A stretch of DNA of 64,000 bases from Burkholderia sp. BCC0506. Its GTDB lineage: Bacteria > Pseudomonadota > Gammaproteobacteria > Burkholderiales > Burkholderiaceae. Below the pieces are notes generated by a model that did not search any database, had not been told where the DNA came from, and saw only the letters and a program-made list of their open reading frames with translations. Of this stretch, positions 4,843 through 44,304 are shown one piece after another. The stretch covers positions 1-64,000 of the forward strand of contig NZ_CADFEN010000002.1 in NCBI RefSeq assembly GCF_902833145.1, given 5' to 3'. The position numbers and the translations under genes were made by a program. Position 1 is the stretch's first letter, and each line of letters starts with the position of its first letter.

Positions 4843-5178
4843 TTAAGCAGTGCTTGGCCGAACAGTCTGTAACCCGACATAGGCCGTGCGCGCGAACAGC
4901 CCGCCGCCGATAATCGAGCCGTTGCCGAGCGAATACTGGTTGACGAGCCGGAAGATCGCACGCGTGCCCGCGCCGAGGTCCTCCTTGCCTTCGAAGCCGA
5001 GCAGGTTCGGAAAGAAGATGTTGTCGTCGAGTTTCGCGGCGCCGTGGCCGCCCTGGTTGCTGACGTAGCTGATGCCGGCATCCATCAGCCCGAACATCGT
5101 CACGCTGCTCTGCGCGAACACTGCGGCGGGAAGCGTACAGGCCGCGAGCGCCAGAAAGGTCTTTTTTATCATCTCCAA
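4843..5178 (-). pseudogene. truncated Gram-negative porin (N-terminal quarter only)
   Basis: The first ~100 residues of an OmpC-type Burkholderia porin. A signal peptide ([20 protein letters not shown]) is followed by the first strand [20 protein letters not shown], the turn [20 protein letters not shown] and [13 protein letters not shown]. Intact family members are about 350-390 residues, but here the reading frame ends after AYVGLQTV and nothing downstream (4611-4842, AT-rich) continues the barrel. I therefore call it a 3'-truncated remnant. The ATG at 5172 and an in-frame TTG at 5178 are both possible starts, with GGAGGAG upstream. A truncated barrel could not form a pore. Confidence 0.8.
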
Positions 5179-5346
5179 AATGCTCCTCCAGGTCCGATCG
5201 AGCCGGGTGCTTTTTAATGGGACTACTGATTAATGTGAGGAAACAGAAACCGGGCGAACCCGGTTCAGCGTCAGTCGAAGAAAGATGCGCACCGCACCGC
5301 GCATCGGCAGATCGGGTCGATGCGCCGATGCGCCGCGTGCCGTGCG

Positions 5347-6069
5347 CTAGACCGTCGAATACCCGCCGTCCACCGGCACGACCGCGCCGGTCACGAACGA
5401 CGCGCCGGGCGAGCACAGGAACAGGATCACTTCCGCCACTTCGTCGGCCGTGCCCCAGCGTCCGAGCGGCGTGCGCTCGAGGATGCGGCGCGACGCCTGT
5501 GTGTCGGCCATCAGCCCGCTGCTGAGCGGCGTGTCGATCCAGCCCGGCGCGACCGCATTCACGCGGATGCCGCGATCGGCCCACGCTTGCGCGAGCGAAC
5601 GCGTGAGCTGCGCGATGCCGCCCTTGCTCGCGCTGTACGCGGGCCGGTCCTTGCTGCCGAAGTACGTGTACATCGACGCGATATTGACGATGCTGCCGCC
5701 GTTGGCCGCCAGCGCGGGCCGCGCGGCGTCGGAGGCCCGCATCACCGACGTCAGGTTCACGTTCAGCACGTGCTCGAACTGATCCATCCGGTATTCGTCC
5801 GCGTGGCGGCTGATGCCGACGCCGTTGACGAGCACGCCGAGCCGCGGCAGCGCGGCGATCGTGCGCGTCAGTGCATCGCCGTCGGCCACGTCGAGCTCCA
5901 CGCACCGGATGCCGGCATGCACGGGCGCATGCGGGCCGGCTGCATGGAGCCCGAGCGCGACGACCGATGCGCCCGCCTGCGCGAACCGCAGCGCGGTGCG
6001 CGCGCCGATGCCCGACGTGCCGCCCGTCACCACGACGGACTGCCCGTCAAACGTCCACTGACGATTCAT
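5347..6069 (-). CDS. SDR-family oxidoreductase
   Basis: A 240-residue classical short-chain dehydrogenase/reductase acting in the cytoplasm with NAD(P)H. The motifs are VTGGTSGIG near residues 14-22, VNGVG (an NNAG variant) near 90, the active-site Ser in [12 protein letters not shown], the YSASK catalytic pair, and [13 protein letters not shown] after it. It ends in [10 protein letters not shown] as is usual. It is the last gene of a four-gene leftward operon, and its start overlaps the preceding zinc dehydrogenase by 23 bp, implying translational coupling. The substrate is unknown. The neighbours suggest oxidation of a diol or hydroxyketone intermediate. An extended in-frame start exists further upstream, but it would lie inside the dehydrogenase gene. 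Confidence 0.85.
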
Positions 6070-7168
6070 GCTCGACACTCCCGTTGGTGGAGGTACGACG
6101 GGCCGGCCGCTGCGCGGGTGAAACGAGGATCTTGATCTGCGTGCGATCGGCGAGCAGCGCGTCGAAGCCGTCGGCGACCGCATCTTCGAGCGACACGGTG
6201 CGCGTGACGATCGACGTGAGGTCGAGCGCGCCCGACGCGACGAGGCGCAGCAGGTCTTCGTACGCATGCCGATAGCCGACGCTCGCGGTGAAGGTCAGCT
6301 CGTCGTTGACCGCGCGGAACGCGTCGAAACCCGCGTGCGGCATCAGGCCGACCATCACGACGCGGCCACCCTTGCGCAGCGCCTGCATCGCCGATTCGAA
6401 CGTGACCTGCAAGCCGGCCGCTTCGAAACTCGTATCGACGCCGAGCCCGCCCGTGACCGCGCGAATCGCGTGCTGCAACGCCGATGCATCGAGCCGGCGC
6501 GCATCGAACGCATGCGTCGCACCGAGGCGCGTGGCGGCGGCGAGCCGCTCGGGCGACACGTCGACGGCAATGATCGTCGTCGCGCCCTGCAGCTTCGCGA
6601 GCATGATCAGCAGCAGGCCGATCGGCCCGAGCCCGAACACCGCGCAGGTGTCGCCGAGCCGCAGTTCGCCGCGCCGCAGCGCATGCAGCGCCACGGCGGC
6701 CGGCTCCATCACCGCGGCCTGTTCGAGGCTCACGCCGTCGGGCAGCCGATGCAGCATGTAGGCCGGCACGACCGCGAAGTCGGCCATCCCGCCGTCGCCC
6801 ATCAGCCCGGCGAAGCCCATCGACACGCACAGGTTGTACGACCCCGAGCGGCAGTACGCGCACTGGCTGCAGCGATATTCGGGCTCGACCGCGACGCGAT
6901 CGCCCGCGCGCAGCGCCGTCACGCCTGCGCCGACTTCGACGACGGTGCCGCAGAACTCGTGGCCGAGCGTGAGCGGCGCGGTGCGGCGCGACAGCGGATG
7001 CGGCGCATCGACCGGAATCGCGTGCGGGCCGTCCGCATATTCGTGCAGATCGCTGCCGCAGATGCCGCAATACGCGACCGCGATGCGCACGTCGCCGGGG
7101 CCGACGCGCGGCGTGTCGATTTCCACGAGACGGACGTCGCGCGGGCCGTGCCATTGAAGTGCGCGCAT
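6047..7168 (-). CDS. zinc-dependent alcohol dehydrogenase (2,3-butanediol/threonine dehydrogenase type)
   Basis: A 373-residue medium-chain dehydrogenase. The catalytic zinc ligands are in [11 protein letters not shown] (Cys near 37) and LGHEFCGTV (His-Glu near 69-70). The structural-zinc cysteines follow in [17 protein letters not shown], and the nucleotide fold has [10 protein letters not shown] near residue 180. The insert [24 protein letters not shown] resembles that of (R,R)-butanediol dehydrogenases. The ATG at 7168 follows the MFS stop codon after a single base (TGA-c-ATG). The C-terminus is about 20 residues longer than usual, with a polar tail that overlaps the SDR start. Likely oxidises a vicinal diol or hydroxyketone supplied by the operon. 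The exact substrate is unknown. Confidence 0.85.
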
Positions 7169-7169
7169 G

Positions 7170-8474
7170 TCAGCGTCCTCCGAGGTTTGGCGTGTCGAGG
7201 CGGCCGGCCGCGGCGCCGGCGAGCGCGCGCTTGCGCAGCACGGCCGGCGCGGTTTCGACGAGGCCGAACGACAGCACGCACGCGAGGATCGCGCCGATGC
7301 TCGACGTCCACATCGCGAACTGCAGGCCGTACCTGTCGGCCGCGAAGCCGGCGACGGTCGGCGCGACGAAGCCGCCGATCAGCTCGCCGGCGCCCATGAT
7401 CAGCCCGAGCGCGCTCGCGATCGCGTGCGGCGGCACCGTTTCGGCCGGGATCGTCGCCATGAACAGCGTGAAGCAGCCGAGGCCCGTGTACGTGGCGAAC
7501 ACCAGCGCGCCGAGCGCCCACACCGAGCCGACGTGGATCAGCACGACCGGGCACACGGCCGCGATCAGCGCGAACGCGATCATGGTCGGCTTGCGGCCGA
7601 TCCGGTCGGAGATCGCCGGCACCGCGAAGCCCCAGAACACCCACGCGGCGCCGAGGCACGTCATCACGACGCCCATGTCGGACGGCGACAGGTGGCGGCT
7701 CTCCACGAGGAACACCGGCGCGAACGAGATGACCACGACGAACCACGTGAGGAAGAAGCAGCTGATCAGTACGCACAGCAGGATGTTGCGCTCCTTCAGC
7801 AGCGCCCAGCGGCTGACCGTCGCGCCGCCGGTGGCCACCGACGCGGTGGTTTCTGCCTGCGCGTGACGCACGCCGCCGGGCGGCACTTCGCGCACCCAGC
7901 GCCAGAGGCAGAACGCGATCAGGAAGCCCGGGATGCACGACACGTAGAACGCCTCGCGCCAGCCGTATGCGGTGGCGATGCCGATCACGACCGGCGGGCC
8001 GATCATCGCGCCGAGCAGGCCGGCGGCCGAGCCTTGCAGCAGGCCCATGTTCAGCCCGCGGCGGCTCGGCGTCGAACTCTCGACCATCAGCGATTGCGAC
8101 AGCGGCAGCACCGGGCCTTCGGCGATGCCCATCAGCGCGCGAAACGCGATCAGGCTCGCGAAGCCGCCGACGAGACCCGACAGCGCCGAGCACACGGAAA
8201 AGCCGAGCACGCTCGCGATCAGCAGCGGCTTGCGGGTGCCGCGCGCATCGGACCACGCACCGGTGGCGGCGCCCGACAGCGCCCACGTCAGCGCGAGCGC
8301 GGACGACACCATGCCGAGTTGCGTGTTCGTCAGGTGCAGCTCGGCCGACATGAACGGGAACAGGAACGACAGCGCGAGGCGGTCGAAGAACACGAAACCG
8401 AACGTCATGAACAGGATCAGCAGCAGCCTGTTCTCGTACGTCCAGACGGGTCTGGAAGAGGAAGGAGCAGACAT
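7170..8474 (-). CDS. MFS transporter, anion:cation symporter type
   Basis: A 434-residue major facilitator with 12 predicted membrane helices in the inner membrane. It resembles the ACS family, which imports organic acids. MFS signatures include GAWSDARGTRKPLL between helices 2 and 3 and FRALMGIAEGPVLPLS in helix 4, with the central cytoplasmic loop WRWVREVPPGGVRHAQAE. It lies 18 bp after the DAD-like gene and one base before the zinc dehydrogenase, so it is part of the same operon and probably takes up that pathway's substrate. Substrate specificity cannot be read from the sequence. Confidence 0.88.
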   Translation of the reverse strand: MSAPSSSRPVWTYENRLLLILFMTFGFVFFDRLALSFLFPFMSAELHLTNTQLGMVSSALALTWALSGAATGAWSDARGTRKPLLIASVLGFSVCSALSGLVGGFASLIAFRALMGIAEGPVLPLSQSLMVESSTPSRRGLNMGLLQGSAAGLLGAMIGPPVVIGIATAYGWREAFYVSCIPGFLIAFCLWRWVREVPPGGVRHAQAETTASVATGGATVSRWALLKERNILLCVLISCFFLTWFVVVISFAPVFLVESRHLSPSDMGVVMTCLGAAWVFWGFAVPAISDRIGRKPTMIAFALIAAVCPVVLIHVGSVWALGALVFATYTGLGCFTLFMATIPAETVPPHAIASALGLIMGAGELIGGFVAPTVAGFAADRYGLQFAMWTSSIGAILACVLSFGLVETAPAVLRKRALAGAAAGRLDTPNLGGR

Positions 8475-41542: not shown

Positions 41543-42664
41543 TCACTCAAAAAGCCCGACAAGCAACCTGTCATACGCTTCGATCTGCTTCGGATTGGTC
41601 GACAAAAACCGCCCGATCCTTTCTCGTTGCTGATTTCGATAGTCTTGCCAGCTCGCGTCATGAACTTCGACGGCTCGCTCGAGCTGCCGACAACCTTCCT
41701 CGACATCGTTTTCAGTGTAAAAGTAGCCCAGCTCGCGGCAGAGGTCGGCGTTGTGGACGAGTGCGTAACCGTTCCAGCACACGTCGAAATAGAAATAATT
41801 CAATGCCAGCCCCGATTGATGGGAGACGACGATGTCGGTGAATTCCGAAAGGAACTGAGGCGTATTGTGGTAGCCGACGAAGCTTATTTTCGAATCCCGC
41901 ACAAGATCGAGGTGATGCGCGATACCGATGAATTCGGGGCTGCCTTTCGCAAGATGCTCGGTGTTCGTCGCGTGCACGTAGGCAATTTTTGCGCCGAGCT
42001 TCCGGTAACCCAATTCCGCGATCAGGATCGGGTAGAGGCAGAACTTGGTGACGTCGATATTCGGCTCCATGACGGACAACCGCTTCGGTTGCCCGGTCGG
42101 ACGATATTCGCCGCGATGCGGGAGCGCGGCCGATCGTTCTTCCACGCAGATCGGATCCCAGACGAACGGTACCTCGCGAACCGGCTGGCGCCGCAGTACG
42201 CTGAAGAAACCGGCGCTGGTCTCGGCGACTTGCGGGATGATCCACACCTGGTCGTAACGTTGGTTGATGAACACCGTTTCAGCATGCCGTCTGCCGAAAA
42301 TCATCGCCTGCATCATGTGCACGTATTCCGGACCGCAACAGTAGCTCACGACTTTCGTGCCGCGTGCCTGCAGATACGCGGTTTGTTGTCGATCGATTTG
42401 CCCGCCGAGCTCGATCAGCACATCGAGCGAATCTTTCGCGTCGTCGAAGGAGCACGCCGGAAACTGCCCGAGATCCCACGGAAGGTCGGACGAGACCTTG
42501 ACGCTCGTCGTGTTGACGAGCGTGACCCGATGTCCGAGCGGCGAATGCTGAAAGAGCTTCATCAGGTACAGGGCGTTCTGCTTGATGCCGTTGACCCAAA
42601 GGCTCTCCGTGGCATGGTGCAGGCCGATTGTGATGCCGATTCTGAGTGATCGTGCGGAACGCAT
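41543..42664 (-). CDS. DUF2827 protein, glycosyltransferase-like
   Basis: A 373-residue protein of the DUF2827 family found mainly in Burkholderia and thought to have a GT-B glycosyltransferase fold. Features are LRIGITIGLHHATESLWVNG with QNALYLMKLF at the N-terminus, LDVLIELGGQIDRQQ, and VVSYCCGPEYVHMMQ. In the C-terminal domain YFYFDVCWNGYALVHNADLC and ELGYFYTENDVEEG are the family hallmark. The ATG at 42664 follows GGAG at good spacing. The donor and acceptor are unknown. Its neighbours do not form a sugar cluster on this side, though envelope polysaccharide genes lie 2 kb to the right. Confidence 0.78.
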   Translation of the reverse strand: MRSARSLRIGITIGLHHATESLWVNGIKQNALYLMKLFQHSPLGHRVTLVNTTSVKVSSDLPWDLGQFPACSFDDAKDSLDVLIELGGQIDRQQTAYLQARGTKVVSYCCGPEYVHMMQAMIFGRRHAETVFINQRYDQVWIIPQVAETSAGFFSVLRRQPVREVPFVWDPICVEERSAALPHRGEYRPTGQPKRLSVMEPNIDVTKFCLYPILIAELGYRKLGAKIAYVHATNTEHLAKGSPEFIGIAHHLDLVRDSKISFVGYHNTPQFLSEFTDIVVSHQSGLALNYFYFDVCWNGYALVHNADLCRELGYFYTENDVEEGCRQLERAVEVHDASWQDYRNQQRERIGRFLSTNPKQIEAYDRLLVGLFE

Positions 42665-42870
42665 GGGGTCTCCGGTATGCGCGTCAAGGTGCGAACGAGA
42701 TCATAGCGCCGCCTCTTTTTCGGGCGGTTAAAAACTGTCAAAAACTGGTCCCCGCCACCTCGCACGCGGTTCAGTGTCGAGCGCCAGCAGTGTGACGAGG
42801 CGGGCCGACGCATCGGCGAAGCACGCTCCGCACCAAGGTATTCGCGTCGGTCACGATTGCGCGCGCCCGA

Positions 42871-42899
42871 TTGACAGGCGGCGCGAGGCCGACTAGATT
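42871..42899 (+). promoter_or_regulatory. sigma-70 promoter of the threonine leader
   Basis: TTGACA (42871-42876) and TAGATT (42894-42899) are separated by the ideal 17 bp. Transcription is expected at about 42905-42907, on the leader ATG itself (42906). The leader peptide would thus be made from a leaderless or near-leaderless message. Confidence 0.75.
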
Positions 42900-42905
42900 C
42901 GACCC

Positions 42906-42986
42906 ATGAACGCACGTTTCGTCACGACCACCACGACCACCACCAAGACCGCCAACGGCGGGCCGGGGGGAGGTTGCACGTCGTAG
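42906..42986 (+). CDS. threonine-rich leader peptide (attenuator peptide)
   Basis: A 26-codon ORF that begins MNARFV, followed by seven consecutive threonine codons (ACG/ACC), Lys and another Thr. It then reads ANGGPGGG and Cys-Thr-Ser-stop. Nine of 26 residues are threonine. It lies right after a strong promoter with no Shine-Dalgarno, 19 bp before the stem region and about 100 bp before a threonyl-tRNA synthetase-like gene. The layout matches amino-acid biosynthetic leaders (thrL type). Ribosome stalling at the Thr run (42924-42950) would leave the downstream GGCGGGCCGGGGGG (42957-42970) free to pair with the terminator's 5' arm. The peptide itself has no assumed function. Confidence 0.85.
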   Translation: MNARFVTTTTTTTKTANGGPGGGCTS

Positions 42987-43011
42987 ATCCATGCGTCACA
43001 TCATCCCCAGG

Positions 43012-43041
43012 AGCCCCGCCGGAAACGGACGGGGCTTTTTT
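43012..43041 (+). terminator. attenuator terminator before the ThrRS-like gene
   Basis: AGCCCCGCC (43012-43020), loop GGAAAC, GG-A-CGGGGCT (43027-43036) with one bulged A, then a run of T to 43041. The 5' arm, in particular CCCGCC (43015-43020), can instead pair with GGCGGG (42957-42962) in the leader, a competing antiterminator. This gives the mutually exclusive folds of classical attenuation. Confidence 0.8.
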
Positions 43042-43083
43042 CATGCTCCGTTCGACCGGCACACCACGTCAATGGAGAACATG

Positions 43084-44304
43084 ATGGACGATTTCGATCA
43101 TCGAGTGCTGGGTAACAGGCTCGATCTGTTTCACCAGCAGGATGAAAGTCCGGGCGCCATTTTCTGGCATCCGCGCGGCATGGTTCTTTATCGGGTCGTC
43201 GAGGAATACATTCGGGTCCGGATGCGCCAAGCCGGCTTTGCCGAAATCCGGACACCGCAGATCGTGTCGCGCAGCCTGTGGGAGCAGAGCGGGCATTGGG
43301 AGAAGTTCGGGCGAAACATGTTTTCCCTCGAAAGCGACAGCAACCCGTACTGCCTGAAGCCGATGAGCTGCCCGTGCCATGTGCAGGTCTTCAGGAAAGG
43401 CTCGCGTTCGTATCGCGATCTGCCGATCCGGTACGCGGAGTTCGGCGCGGTTCACCGGGCGGAGCCGTCCGGCGCATTGCATGGCCTGATGCGTGCGCGC
43501 GCATTCACGCAGGACGATGCCCATGTGCTGTGCACGCCCGATCAGGTCGAGGCCGAGGTGGCGCGCTTCTGCGTGCTGCTGAAGACGATCTATGCAGACT
43601 TCGGTTTCGACGGATTCGACGTGGCGCTGTCGACGAGGCCGGCGCTTCGGGCCGGCGACGATTCGGTGTGGGCGCGTGCGGAAGCGATGCTGGCGTCCGC
43701 TGCGCGCGCGGCGGGCGTCGATTTCGCGATCCAGGCGGGAGAAGGGGCATTCTACGGCCCGAAGCTCGAGTTTCATTTGCTCGACCGTCAACGGCGAAAG
43801 TGGCAGTGCGGAACGATCCAGCTCGACTTCGTGTTGCCGGAGCGCCTCGGTGCAACCTATGTCGCGGAGGACGGTGCGAAAGCGACGCCCGTGATGTTGC
43901 ATCACGCGGTGCTCGGCAGCCTCGAACGGTTCATCGGCATTCTGCTCGAGCACTACGAGGGATGGTTGCCGACGTGGCTGGCGCCGGATCAGGTCGTCAT
44001 CGCGAATATCGGAGAAGGCGATCGCGCGTTCGCCGACGACACGGCATGCGCGTTCGAAGCAATCGGCTGCCGGGTGCTGCGGGATTTCCGTCCCGAGCGT
44101 TTGCCGCGCAAGATCGTCGACGCGAGGGAACTGGCTGCGCCGATCGTCGCGGTGACGGGGCGGAAGGAAGCGCTGGCCGGCGAGGTGTCGTTGCGGATGC
44201 GGGGCGGCGAGCAGCACGTGCTGAAGATCGACGATGCGCTTGCGTACCTGACGCAGCATGTGCGTGCACCGTCCGCGTCGCGGGTGTTCCGCCCTTCGGT
44301 CTGA
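43084..44304 (+). CDS. threonyl-tRNA synthetase paralogue lacking N-terminal editing domains
   Basis: A 406-residue class II synthetase aligning with E. coli ThrRS from about residue 242 onward: catalytic core plus anticodon-binding domain, without the TGS and editing domains. The zinc ligands are kept: Cys96 in KPMSCPCHVQVF, His147 in QDDAHVLC and His273 in PVMLHHAVLGS. Motif 2 Arg125 (GAVHRAEPSG) and motif 3 Arg282 (GSLERFIGIL) are kept. Differences from bacterial ThrRS include NCPGH to SCPCH and HRNE to HRAE. The ATG at 43084 has GGAG six bases upstream. ATGs at 43081 and 43072 are in frame. It is controlled by the Thr leader. Could charge tRNA-Thr without proofreading, back up the main enzyme, or give drug resistance. 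Confidence 0.88.
   Translation: MDDFDHRVLGNRLDLFHQQDESPGAIFWHPRGMVLYRVVEEYIRVRMRQAGFAEIRTPQIVSRSLWEQSGHWEKFGRNMFSLESDSNPYCLKPMSCPCHVQVFRKGSRSYRDLPIRYAEFGAVHRAEPSGALHGLMRARAFTQDDAHVLCTPDQVEAEVARFCVLLKTIYADFGFDGFDVALSTRPALRAGDDSVWARAEAMLASAARAAGVDFAIQAGEGAFYGPKLEFHLLDRQRRKWQCGTIQLDFVLPERLGATYVAEDGAKATPVMLHHAVLGSLERFIGILLEHYEGWLPTWLAPDQVVIANIGEGDRAFADDTACAFEAIGCRVLRDFRPERLPRKIVDARELAAPIVAVTGRKEALAGEVSLRMRGGEQHVLKIDDALAYLTQHVRAPSASRVFRPSV

Follow-up and report, generated by a model that had tools for sequence, protein, structure and literature searches.

The window analysed here, a stretch of 64,000 nucleotides from contig NZ_CADFEN010000002.1 of Burkholderia sp. BCC0506, carries a second gene for a threonyl-tRNA synthetase (ThrRS), designated thrS2, behind a short open reading frame (ORF) with a run of threonine codons. 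An original prediction made from the sequence had taken this arrangement for a leader-peptide attenuator, and its promoter, leader, pairing motifs (GGCGGG at 42957-42962 and CCCGCC at 43015-43020), hairpin and GGAG were all found in the DNA. The sequence analysis makes it highly probable that the element is a ribosome-mediated transcription attenuator, which responds to charged tRNA-Thr and regulates an auxiliary ThrRS without an editing domain. The original prediction overlooked one segment (43045-43060). The features of the locus are listed below (SD, Shine-Dalgarno).

42871-42899, + strand: sigma-70-type promoter TTGACA-17-TAGATT, read directly (TTGACA 42871-42876, TAGATT 42894-42899)
42906-42986, + strand: leader peptide ORF, 26 amino acids (ATG 42906, 6 nt past the -10 box; stop TAG 42984-42986)
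42924-42950, + strand: segment 1, proposed stall site; seven consecutive Thr codons (42924-42944), then AAG and ACC
42957-42975, + strand: segment 2, GGCGGG...GGAGG, 5' strand of the antiterminator inside the leader ORF (nascent-RNA folding)
43003-43020, + strand: segment 3, 3' strand of the antiterminator and 5' arm of the terminator
43012-43041, + strand: intrinsic terminator (3:4) with T run (fold, helix covariation); hairpin 43012-43036 and T run 43036-43041 read directly
43018-43035, + strand: segment 4, terminator loop and 3' arm, able to pair with segment 5
43045-43060, + strand: segment 5, pairing with segment 4 (proposed ON state) or, via 43046-43052, with the thrS2 SD (proposed OFF state)
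43071-43077, + strand: segment 6, thrS2 SD region (GGAG 43074-43077)
43084-44304, + strand: thrS2, 406-amino-acid ThrRS paralogue with catalytic core and anticodon-binding domain (Pfam, TIGR00418, PDB match, alignment)

ThrRS2 and its threonine leader

The thrS2 gene starts at the second of two in-register ATG codons (43081 and 43084), which is the conserved one, and ends with the stop codon at 44302-44304. Pfam assigned its product, ThrRS2, only a class II core and a domain for anticodon binding; the TGS and editing (SAD) domains are absent, and the sequence begins at about residue 239 of the E. coli enzyme. The earlier description of a catalytic-only synthetase is inexact, as the anticodon-binding domain is present. 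The protein scored 440.3 bits against TIGR00418 (threonyl-tRNA synthetase; curated cut-off, 383.65), and its residues 5-399 matched ThrRS catalytic-fragment chains in the PDB. AlphaFold modelling with nine sequences reached a mean pLDDT of 67.5, and the model was set aside as poor.

A separate full-length thrS is present in the same genome, and its product is 53% identical to ThrRS2 over the shared part. The catalytic parts of 24 ThrRS2 and 25 full-length enzymes were split by one branch with 100/100 support in an unrooted tree, drawn midpoint-rooted, which leaves out archaeal and organellar ThrRS and in which loci L021, L146 and L152 form long branches. The 25 full-length rows include four full-length plasmid paralogues and one Salmonella thrS. 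Zinc ligands C334, H385 and H511, as well as Y462 and G463, were invariant across 38 ThrRS2 and the 25 full-length rows. As a class, ThrRS2 differs by N333S (38/38) and R512H (37/38), both adjacent to zinc ligands, and by Y290F (37/38). Such an editing-less enzyme would be expected to produce Ser-tRNA-Thr, which, by analogy with Anabaena, the housekeeping enzyme could perhaps edit.

The leader peptide of the window reads MNARFVTTTTTTTKTANGGPGGGCTS. Its ORF is the sole ATG ORF of at most 60 codons in the window with at least five consecutive Thr, and no such ORF arose in eight dinucleotide-shuffled windows. A promoter, a Thr-containing leader and a terminator-like hairpin precede every thrS2 orthologue read, so that the leader is more than a chance feature. 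Orthologues were collected from one genome-contig scan (best 80 of 405) and from searches at the level of genus, family, order and phylum and in two other groups. They gave 52 distinct loci (38 + 14), which are related sequences and not independent events; L005-L009 were set aside as species repeats of L085-L102, and L171 holds a partial gene. TTGAC was in place at 52/52 loci (51 scored by script, L152 by eye), and a Thr-containing leader was read upstream of all 52, across two proteobacterial classes and one Myxococcota metagenome-assembled genome (MAG). At least three consecutive Thr were found in 50 of these leaders and at least six in 32. The original prediction had staked itself on conservation of the Thr run alongside the synthetase gene, and this conservation was observed. 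The run stays in frame across clades, with ACC, ACG, ACA and ACT all in use. Within the window's clade, 7, 5 and 10 of 17 leader columns were variable at codon positions 1, 2 and 3, respectively. At the full-length thrS loci, a Thr-run leader was found in 0/25 when searched from -400 nt to +120 nt of the open-frame start.

Among the 51 loci scored, the leader ATG lies 4-10 nt downstream of the best -10 box and no SD-like motif precedes it. The leader ORF is therefore probably leaderless, with the transcript starting at or next to its ATG and translation beginning from the very 5' end. The Rfam family Thr_leader (RF00506) reached only 15.4 bits here (gathering cut-off, 55). The T-box model had no match either, whether over the whole window at its gathering cut-off or within 42850-43120 at E <= 5. 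In the B. seminalis leader (L006/L087), the G tract that follows the Thr run is longer by one G, which shifts the frame and displaces the stop codon far downstream; its Thr run and terminator are intact.

Within the genus Burkholderia, thrS2 was located in 19 of 65 genomes (E <= 1e-145), and the family sample contained it in 43 of 398 genomes. Outside the family, thrS2 was found in MAG contigs of Acidocella (L010, Alphaproteobacteria) and Polyangiaceae (L021, Myxococcota) and, in a phylum sample of 398, in five genomes of another class, probably Alphaproteobacteria (L146-L149, L152); one genus among these five had it in 10 of 60 genomes, with one copy partial. No new thrS2 appeared among the matches listed for the order sample (399 genomes) or in the family of genome G977 (121 genomes). 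Of 728 matching plasmid records, six were examined; H4, H7, H11, H17 and H27 encode full-length enzymes and H2 (Caballeronia) carries thrS2. The Acidocella ThrRS2 clusters with Paraburkholderia-type rows, which suggests transfer. When nine loci were compared, the downstream genes were common to the window, L005 and L006, and the remaining loci had no flanking gene in common except for one weak match. Upstream of thrS2 in the window, a DUF2827 gene lies on the opposite strand (41543-42664); it was unmatched in the eight other loci compared.

Folding of the attenuator and its proposed link to translation

In the proposed scheme, ribosomes would load directly on the 5' end of the transcript at the leader ATG. 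When Thr-tRNA is plentiful, the ribosome would reach the leader stop and partly cover segment 2, the terminator (3:4) would form, and transcription would end. When Thr-tRNA is scarce, the ribosome would stall in the Thr run and segment 2 would pair with segment 3 before segment 4 is made; no terminator would then form, and RNA polymerase would enter thrS2, whose product would supply Thr-tRNA. The freed segment 4 is proposed to pair with segment 5 and keep it off the thrS2 SD. The proposed chain thus reads OFF = 3:4 + 5:6 and ON = 2:3 + 4:5, and because 4:5 would block masking by 5:6, antitermination and translation would be switched together.

The mutually exclusive folds put forward in the original prediction were recovered in modelled nascent RNA, where the 2:3 pairing exceeded a probability of 0.5 in 38/38 loci (median 0.92), so that the antiterminator is predicted to form first. 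The terminator helix covaries, with five pairs altered on both sides and a score reached in 0 of 500 shuffles; the inner 2:3 helix is less regular, pairing in 71% of cells. A tract of 6-7 T follows the hairpin in 16/16 loci of the Burkholderia alignment.

The pairing of 43018-43035 with 43045-43060 in the window has a duplex energy of -27.8 kcal/mol. Across loci, 4:5 pairing was stronger than in dinucleotide shuffles in 37 of 38 (p <= 0.05) and in 13 of 14 further loci, beat random pieces of the same locus in 35/38, and was better with the native partner than the mean of swapped partners in 45/47. It was retained with different letters in L021, L146 and L152. Masking of the SD by 5:6 exceeded shuffles in 25 of the 38 loci, and the native combination was better in 37 of 47 swaps. 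The 4:5 pairing is the better supported half of the chain. If the chain operates as proposed, 5:6 masking would keep leaky read-through silent, and antiterminated mRNA would become translatable as the SD is freed when the terminator is disarmed.

Several results count against this scheme. Equilibrium folding favoured the terminator in 38/38 loci, whether the ribosome was stalled or not, so that the switch has to be a kinetic one. For comparison, the terminator is also part of the fold obtained for the thr leader of E. coli. Release of the SD is not predicted by equilibrium folding either: modelled SD access was nearly constant (median 0.02 stalled vs 0.01 released), with a clear rise upon stalling in a few loci only, such as L090 and L091. 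Loci of the Paraburkholderia/Caballeronia type have a poor T tract, and the leaders of L163 and L169 have no consecutive Thr run (2/52). In the set of 14 further loci, the 5:6 pairing exceeded shuffles only twice, and the 12 loci that fell short belong to one family; among six attenuators that precede other genes it did so in only two. Covariation tests of 4:5 and 5:6 by alignment column, made within clades, gave no significant result, with one test marginal, in part because many letters hardly vary.

The same attenuator before other genes

An RNA model of the attenuator was built from 18 training rows, of which 15 came from the 43 thrS2 genomes of the family sample and two more (L043, L134) seemingly lie in or very near sample genomes. 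The model matched upstream of 43/43 thrS2 genes among the 398 family genomes, about 26 of them independent of the training rows. For 30 of the 43 places loci were returned, G001 and G018 came from the genus search, and the other 11 were judged by the model match only. Together with the leaders at all 52 loci, these matches support the attenuator reading of the original prediction.

At E <= 1.5e-11 the model gave 51 matches. Forty-two precede the thrS2 genes of the family sample, and two stand before thrS2 copies that are broken or partial (G027:C35 and, where the contig ends, G212). Five others lie before a major facilitator superfamily (MFS) gene (G031, G019, G050) or its presumed remnant (G001:C15, G008), one before a full-length ThrRS gene (G078), and one (G027:C62) before a gene similar to the one with an ABM domain in L195. 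Weaker matches were numerous, with 184 of the 398 genomes matched at E <= 0.01. The genes at these places, in coordinates of their own loci, are as follows.

L209 (G031), 4844-6277: MFS gene under the Thr attenuator
L210 (G050), 5947-7409: MFS gene under the Thr attenuator
L181 (G019): MFS gene under the Thr attenuator
L186 (G078), 508-2448: full-length second ThrRS gene behind a Thr-leader attenuator

Of the three MFS proteins, the two that were scanned gave Pfam MFS_1 and weak similarity to the multidrug transporter MdtH. The first codons of the MFS genes are derived from thrS2, and the loci in G031 and G050, two other Burkholderia, show synteny with the part of the window that begins at 44.4 kb. 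No ThrRS2 was found in G031, G019 or G050, each of which has one ThrRS at E <= 1e-40. Remnants of the MFS gene were recognized by eye in L182 and L184. The full-length enzyme of G078 contains TGS and editing domains, has Ser463 and Met489, and is not followed by infC; none of the ten neighbouring proteins scanned belonged to an antibiotic-synthesis family. The 4:5 pairing was present in 5/6 attenuators before other genes (p <= 0.01). Judged by sequence, the attenuator is a portable module, which goes beyond the original prediction.

Related leaders were also noticed elsewhere. Thr-run leaders with the motifs ITTTTIGNGG, VTTTTTIGTGG and ITTTTTIANGG precede ABM-domain genes in L195 (2031-2360), L196 and L187 (Pfam assignment for L195 only). 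In L197, a gene for an isochorismatase-family hydrolase (1889-2428) follows a leader with TTTRTTAFGG; L198 looks like a remnant, and a similar leader is found in the genome of the window itself (G000:C4:189255-189338, L201). Attenuator-like matches before DUF2917-like genes (L188-L194; Pfam assignment for L188 only) have leaders that are not rich in Thr but in Ile, Ala and Asn, with an own-genome counterpart at G000:C7:197379-197461 (L202). Further model matches in the same genome were weak (32-35 bits). L203 was rejected as an attenuator, as it looks like a plain terminator. In two Burkholderia genomes (G051, locus L172; G014, locus L173), an additional ThrRS paralogue of full length has His at 316 and the normal Gly463; neither had a Thr-run leader near the open-frame start or the Ser463/Met489 pair.

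Inducing signal and comparison with known systems

The trigger of the attenuator is most likely inhibition of ThrRS, since an ObaO-like ThrRS and a transporter of the efflux type are found elsewhere under its control. On balance we favour inhibition of the housekeeping enzyme by a natural antibiotic over amino acid shortage, a likely purpose that the original prediction did not foresee. With about even confidence, the whole can be pictured as a portable sensor of a poisoned ThrRS, consisting of a leaderless Thr attenuator, a six-segment chain that couples antitermination to SD release, and a cassette of alternative countermeasures: an editing-less ThrRS, an ObaO-like ThrRS or an MFS pump, and possibly small oxygenases and hydrolases. 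If so, bacteria would deploy whichever defence they own only when a rival's antibiotic blocks Thr-tRNA charging.

This purpose is called into question by the enzyme itself. Gly463 is kept in 38/38 ThrRS2, so that the one known resistance residue, produced by the G463S change that confers resistance to obafluorin and borrelidin, is missing, which leaves inhibitor resistance of ThrRS2 putative. Leu489 is present in 37/38, with Met489 in one row, and the ObaO-type pair of Ser463 and Met489 did not occur in the 38 rows; among the 25 full-length rows, Met489 alone was found in three and Ser463 in none.

The absence of a known resistance change would suit a real attenuator whose trigger is ordinary threonine starvation, with thrS2 as a back-up like B. 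subtilis thrZ and no link to antibiotics; the quantity sensed, charged tRNA-Thr, would be the same. We regard this as possible but clearly the less probable trigger. A general stress response would hardly be expected to show the patchy spread of thrS2 (19/65 Burkholderia, 43/398 in the family) and its mostly differing neighbours. A second synthetase would presumably be of little help when the amino acid itself is missing, and an efflux-type MFS protein and an ObaO-like ThrRS under the same attenuator fit inhibition better. The swap of synthetase and transporter at the same locus makes the question of starvation or poisoning directly testable.

It is rather doubtful that control is mainly translational, in which case stalling in the leader would expose the SD by way of the 4:5/5:6 exchange and little termination would occur at hairpin 43012-43036. 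The SD masking seen in 25 of the 38 loci, with other letters in L021, L146 and L152, and the poor T tract of Paraburkholderia-type loci speak for such control. The uniform T tract of the Burkholderia loci and the covarying hairpin speak against it, as do the weak SD masking in 12 of the 14 loci outside the family and the small change of SD access at equilibrium.

A low-zinc paralogue, as found in cyanobacteria and among some full-length plasmid-borne copies, is a very improbable reading of ThrRS2. Second ThrRS genes beside Fur-family, folE and DUF1826 or DksA, folE2 and hemB genes do exist, and N333S and R512H flank two zinc ligands. However, the zinc-type copies are full-length and fall outside ThrRS2 in the tree, no Fur-family or zinc gene occurs among the annotated neighbours of thrS2 in the window, a Thr leader does not sense zinc, and all zinc ligands are retained; zinc control was rejected on these grounds. 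The plasmid-borne second ThrRS genes of L129, L131 and L133, beside Fur-family and folE or DksA and hemB genes, are probably of the low-zinc kind. A chance origin of the Thr run as low-complexity sequence, which ACC/ACG repeats in a GC-rich genome and the only mild third-position bias of leader variability might suggest, is refuted by in-frame conservation over two proteobacterial classes and the Myxococcota MAG with all four Thr codons; the shuffled windows also speak against it.

Searches of open-licence PMC papers listed none that deals with a ThrRS paralogue behind a Thr leader, nor any on the combination described here, its spread, the SD-coupled chain or the gene swap. The attenuator could serve as a defined reporter with which to detect natural inhibitors of ThrRS, and ThrRS2 points to a naturally editing-less, inducible ThrRS family with testable fidelity.

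In B. subtilis, thrS and thrZ are reportedly two ThrRS genes under transcriptional antitermination, in which a T-box RNA reads the tRNA directly. The system described here shares the two ThrRS genes with it and differs in having a translated leader and no T-box match. E. coli thrL likewise combines a Thr-rich leader with a terminator but governs biosynthesis. The pheM-pheST operon of E. coli is an attenuation-controlled synthetase operon and resembles thrS2 in having a leader peptide before a synthetase. A leaderless leader, as proposed here, is described for Sinorhizobium meliloti trpL, where the 5' end of the attenuator RNA is the leader ATG (PMC7298713); that attenuator serves Trp biosynthesis and no synthetase.

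Two other second ThrRS enzymes are informative. ObaO is an obafluorin-resistant second ThrRS whose resistance is reported to be determined by Ser463 and not by L489M on its own (PMC11252418). The attenuated enzyme of L186 carries the same Ser463 and Met489, whereas ThrRS2, unlike the full-length ObaO, is truncated and keeps Gly463 and, except in one row, Leu489. ThrRS T2 of Anabaena is described as an inducible second ThrRS with impaired editing, for which the first ThrRS edits in heterodimers (PMC4787780). It differs in its control by zinc and Zur and in retaining a degenerate editing domain.

Further parallels concern other amino acids. The trpRS1 gene of Streptomyces is said to encode a leader-controlled, antibiotic-resistant auxiliary synthetase. 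Attenuators have also been predicted for trpS2 and leuS in Streptomyces (PMC1262725). These cases and thrS2 share an auxiliary or duplicated synthetase behind a leader rich in the cognate codon with an antiterminator and a terminator; unlike them, the thrS2 attenuator uses Thr instead of Trp or Leu, is found in Proteobacteria and a Myxococcota MAG, controls a truncated editing-less enzyme, has the extra 4:5/5:6 pairings, and also stands before a transporter gene. In bacilli, His leader peptides precede the hisS paralogues hisZ and hisS* (PMC2965389), which likewise places a leader-peptide attenuator on synthetase-like paralogues; these differ in the amino acid and in belonging to Firmicutes, and no truncated synthetase is described in the passages concerned. 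With the thrS2 attenuator, ribosome-mediated attenuation of auxiliary synthetases, described for Trp and Leu in actinobacteria and for His in bacilli, would extend to Thr, in Proteobacteria and probably in Myxococcota as well.

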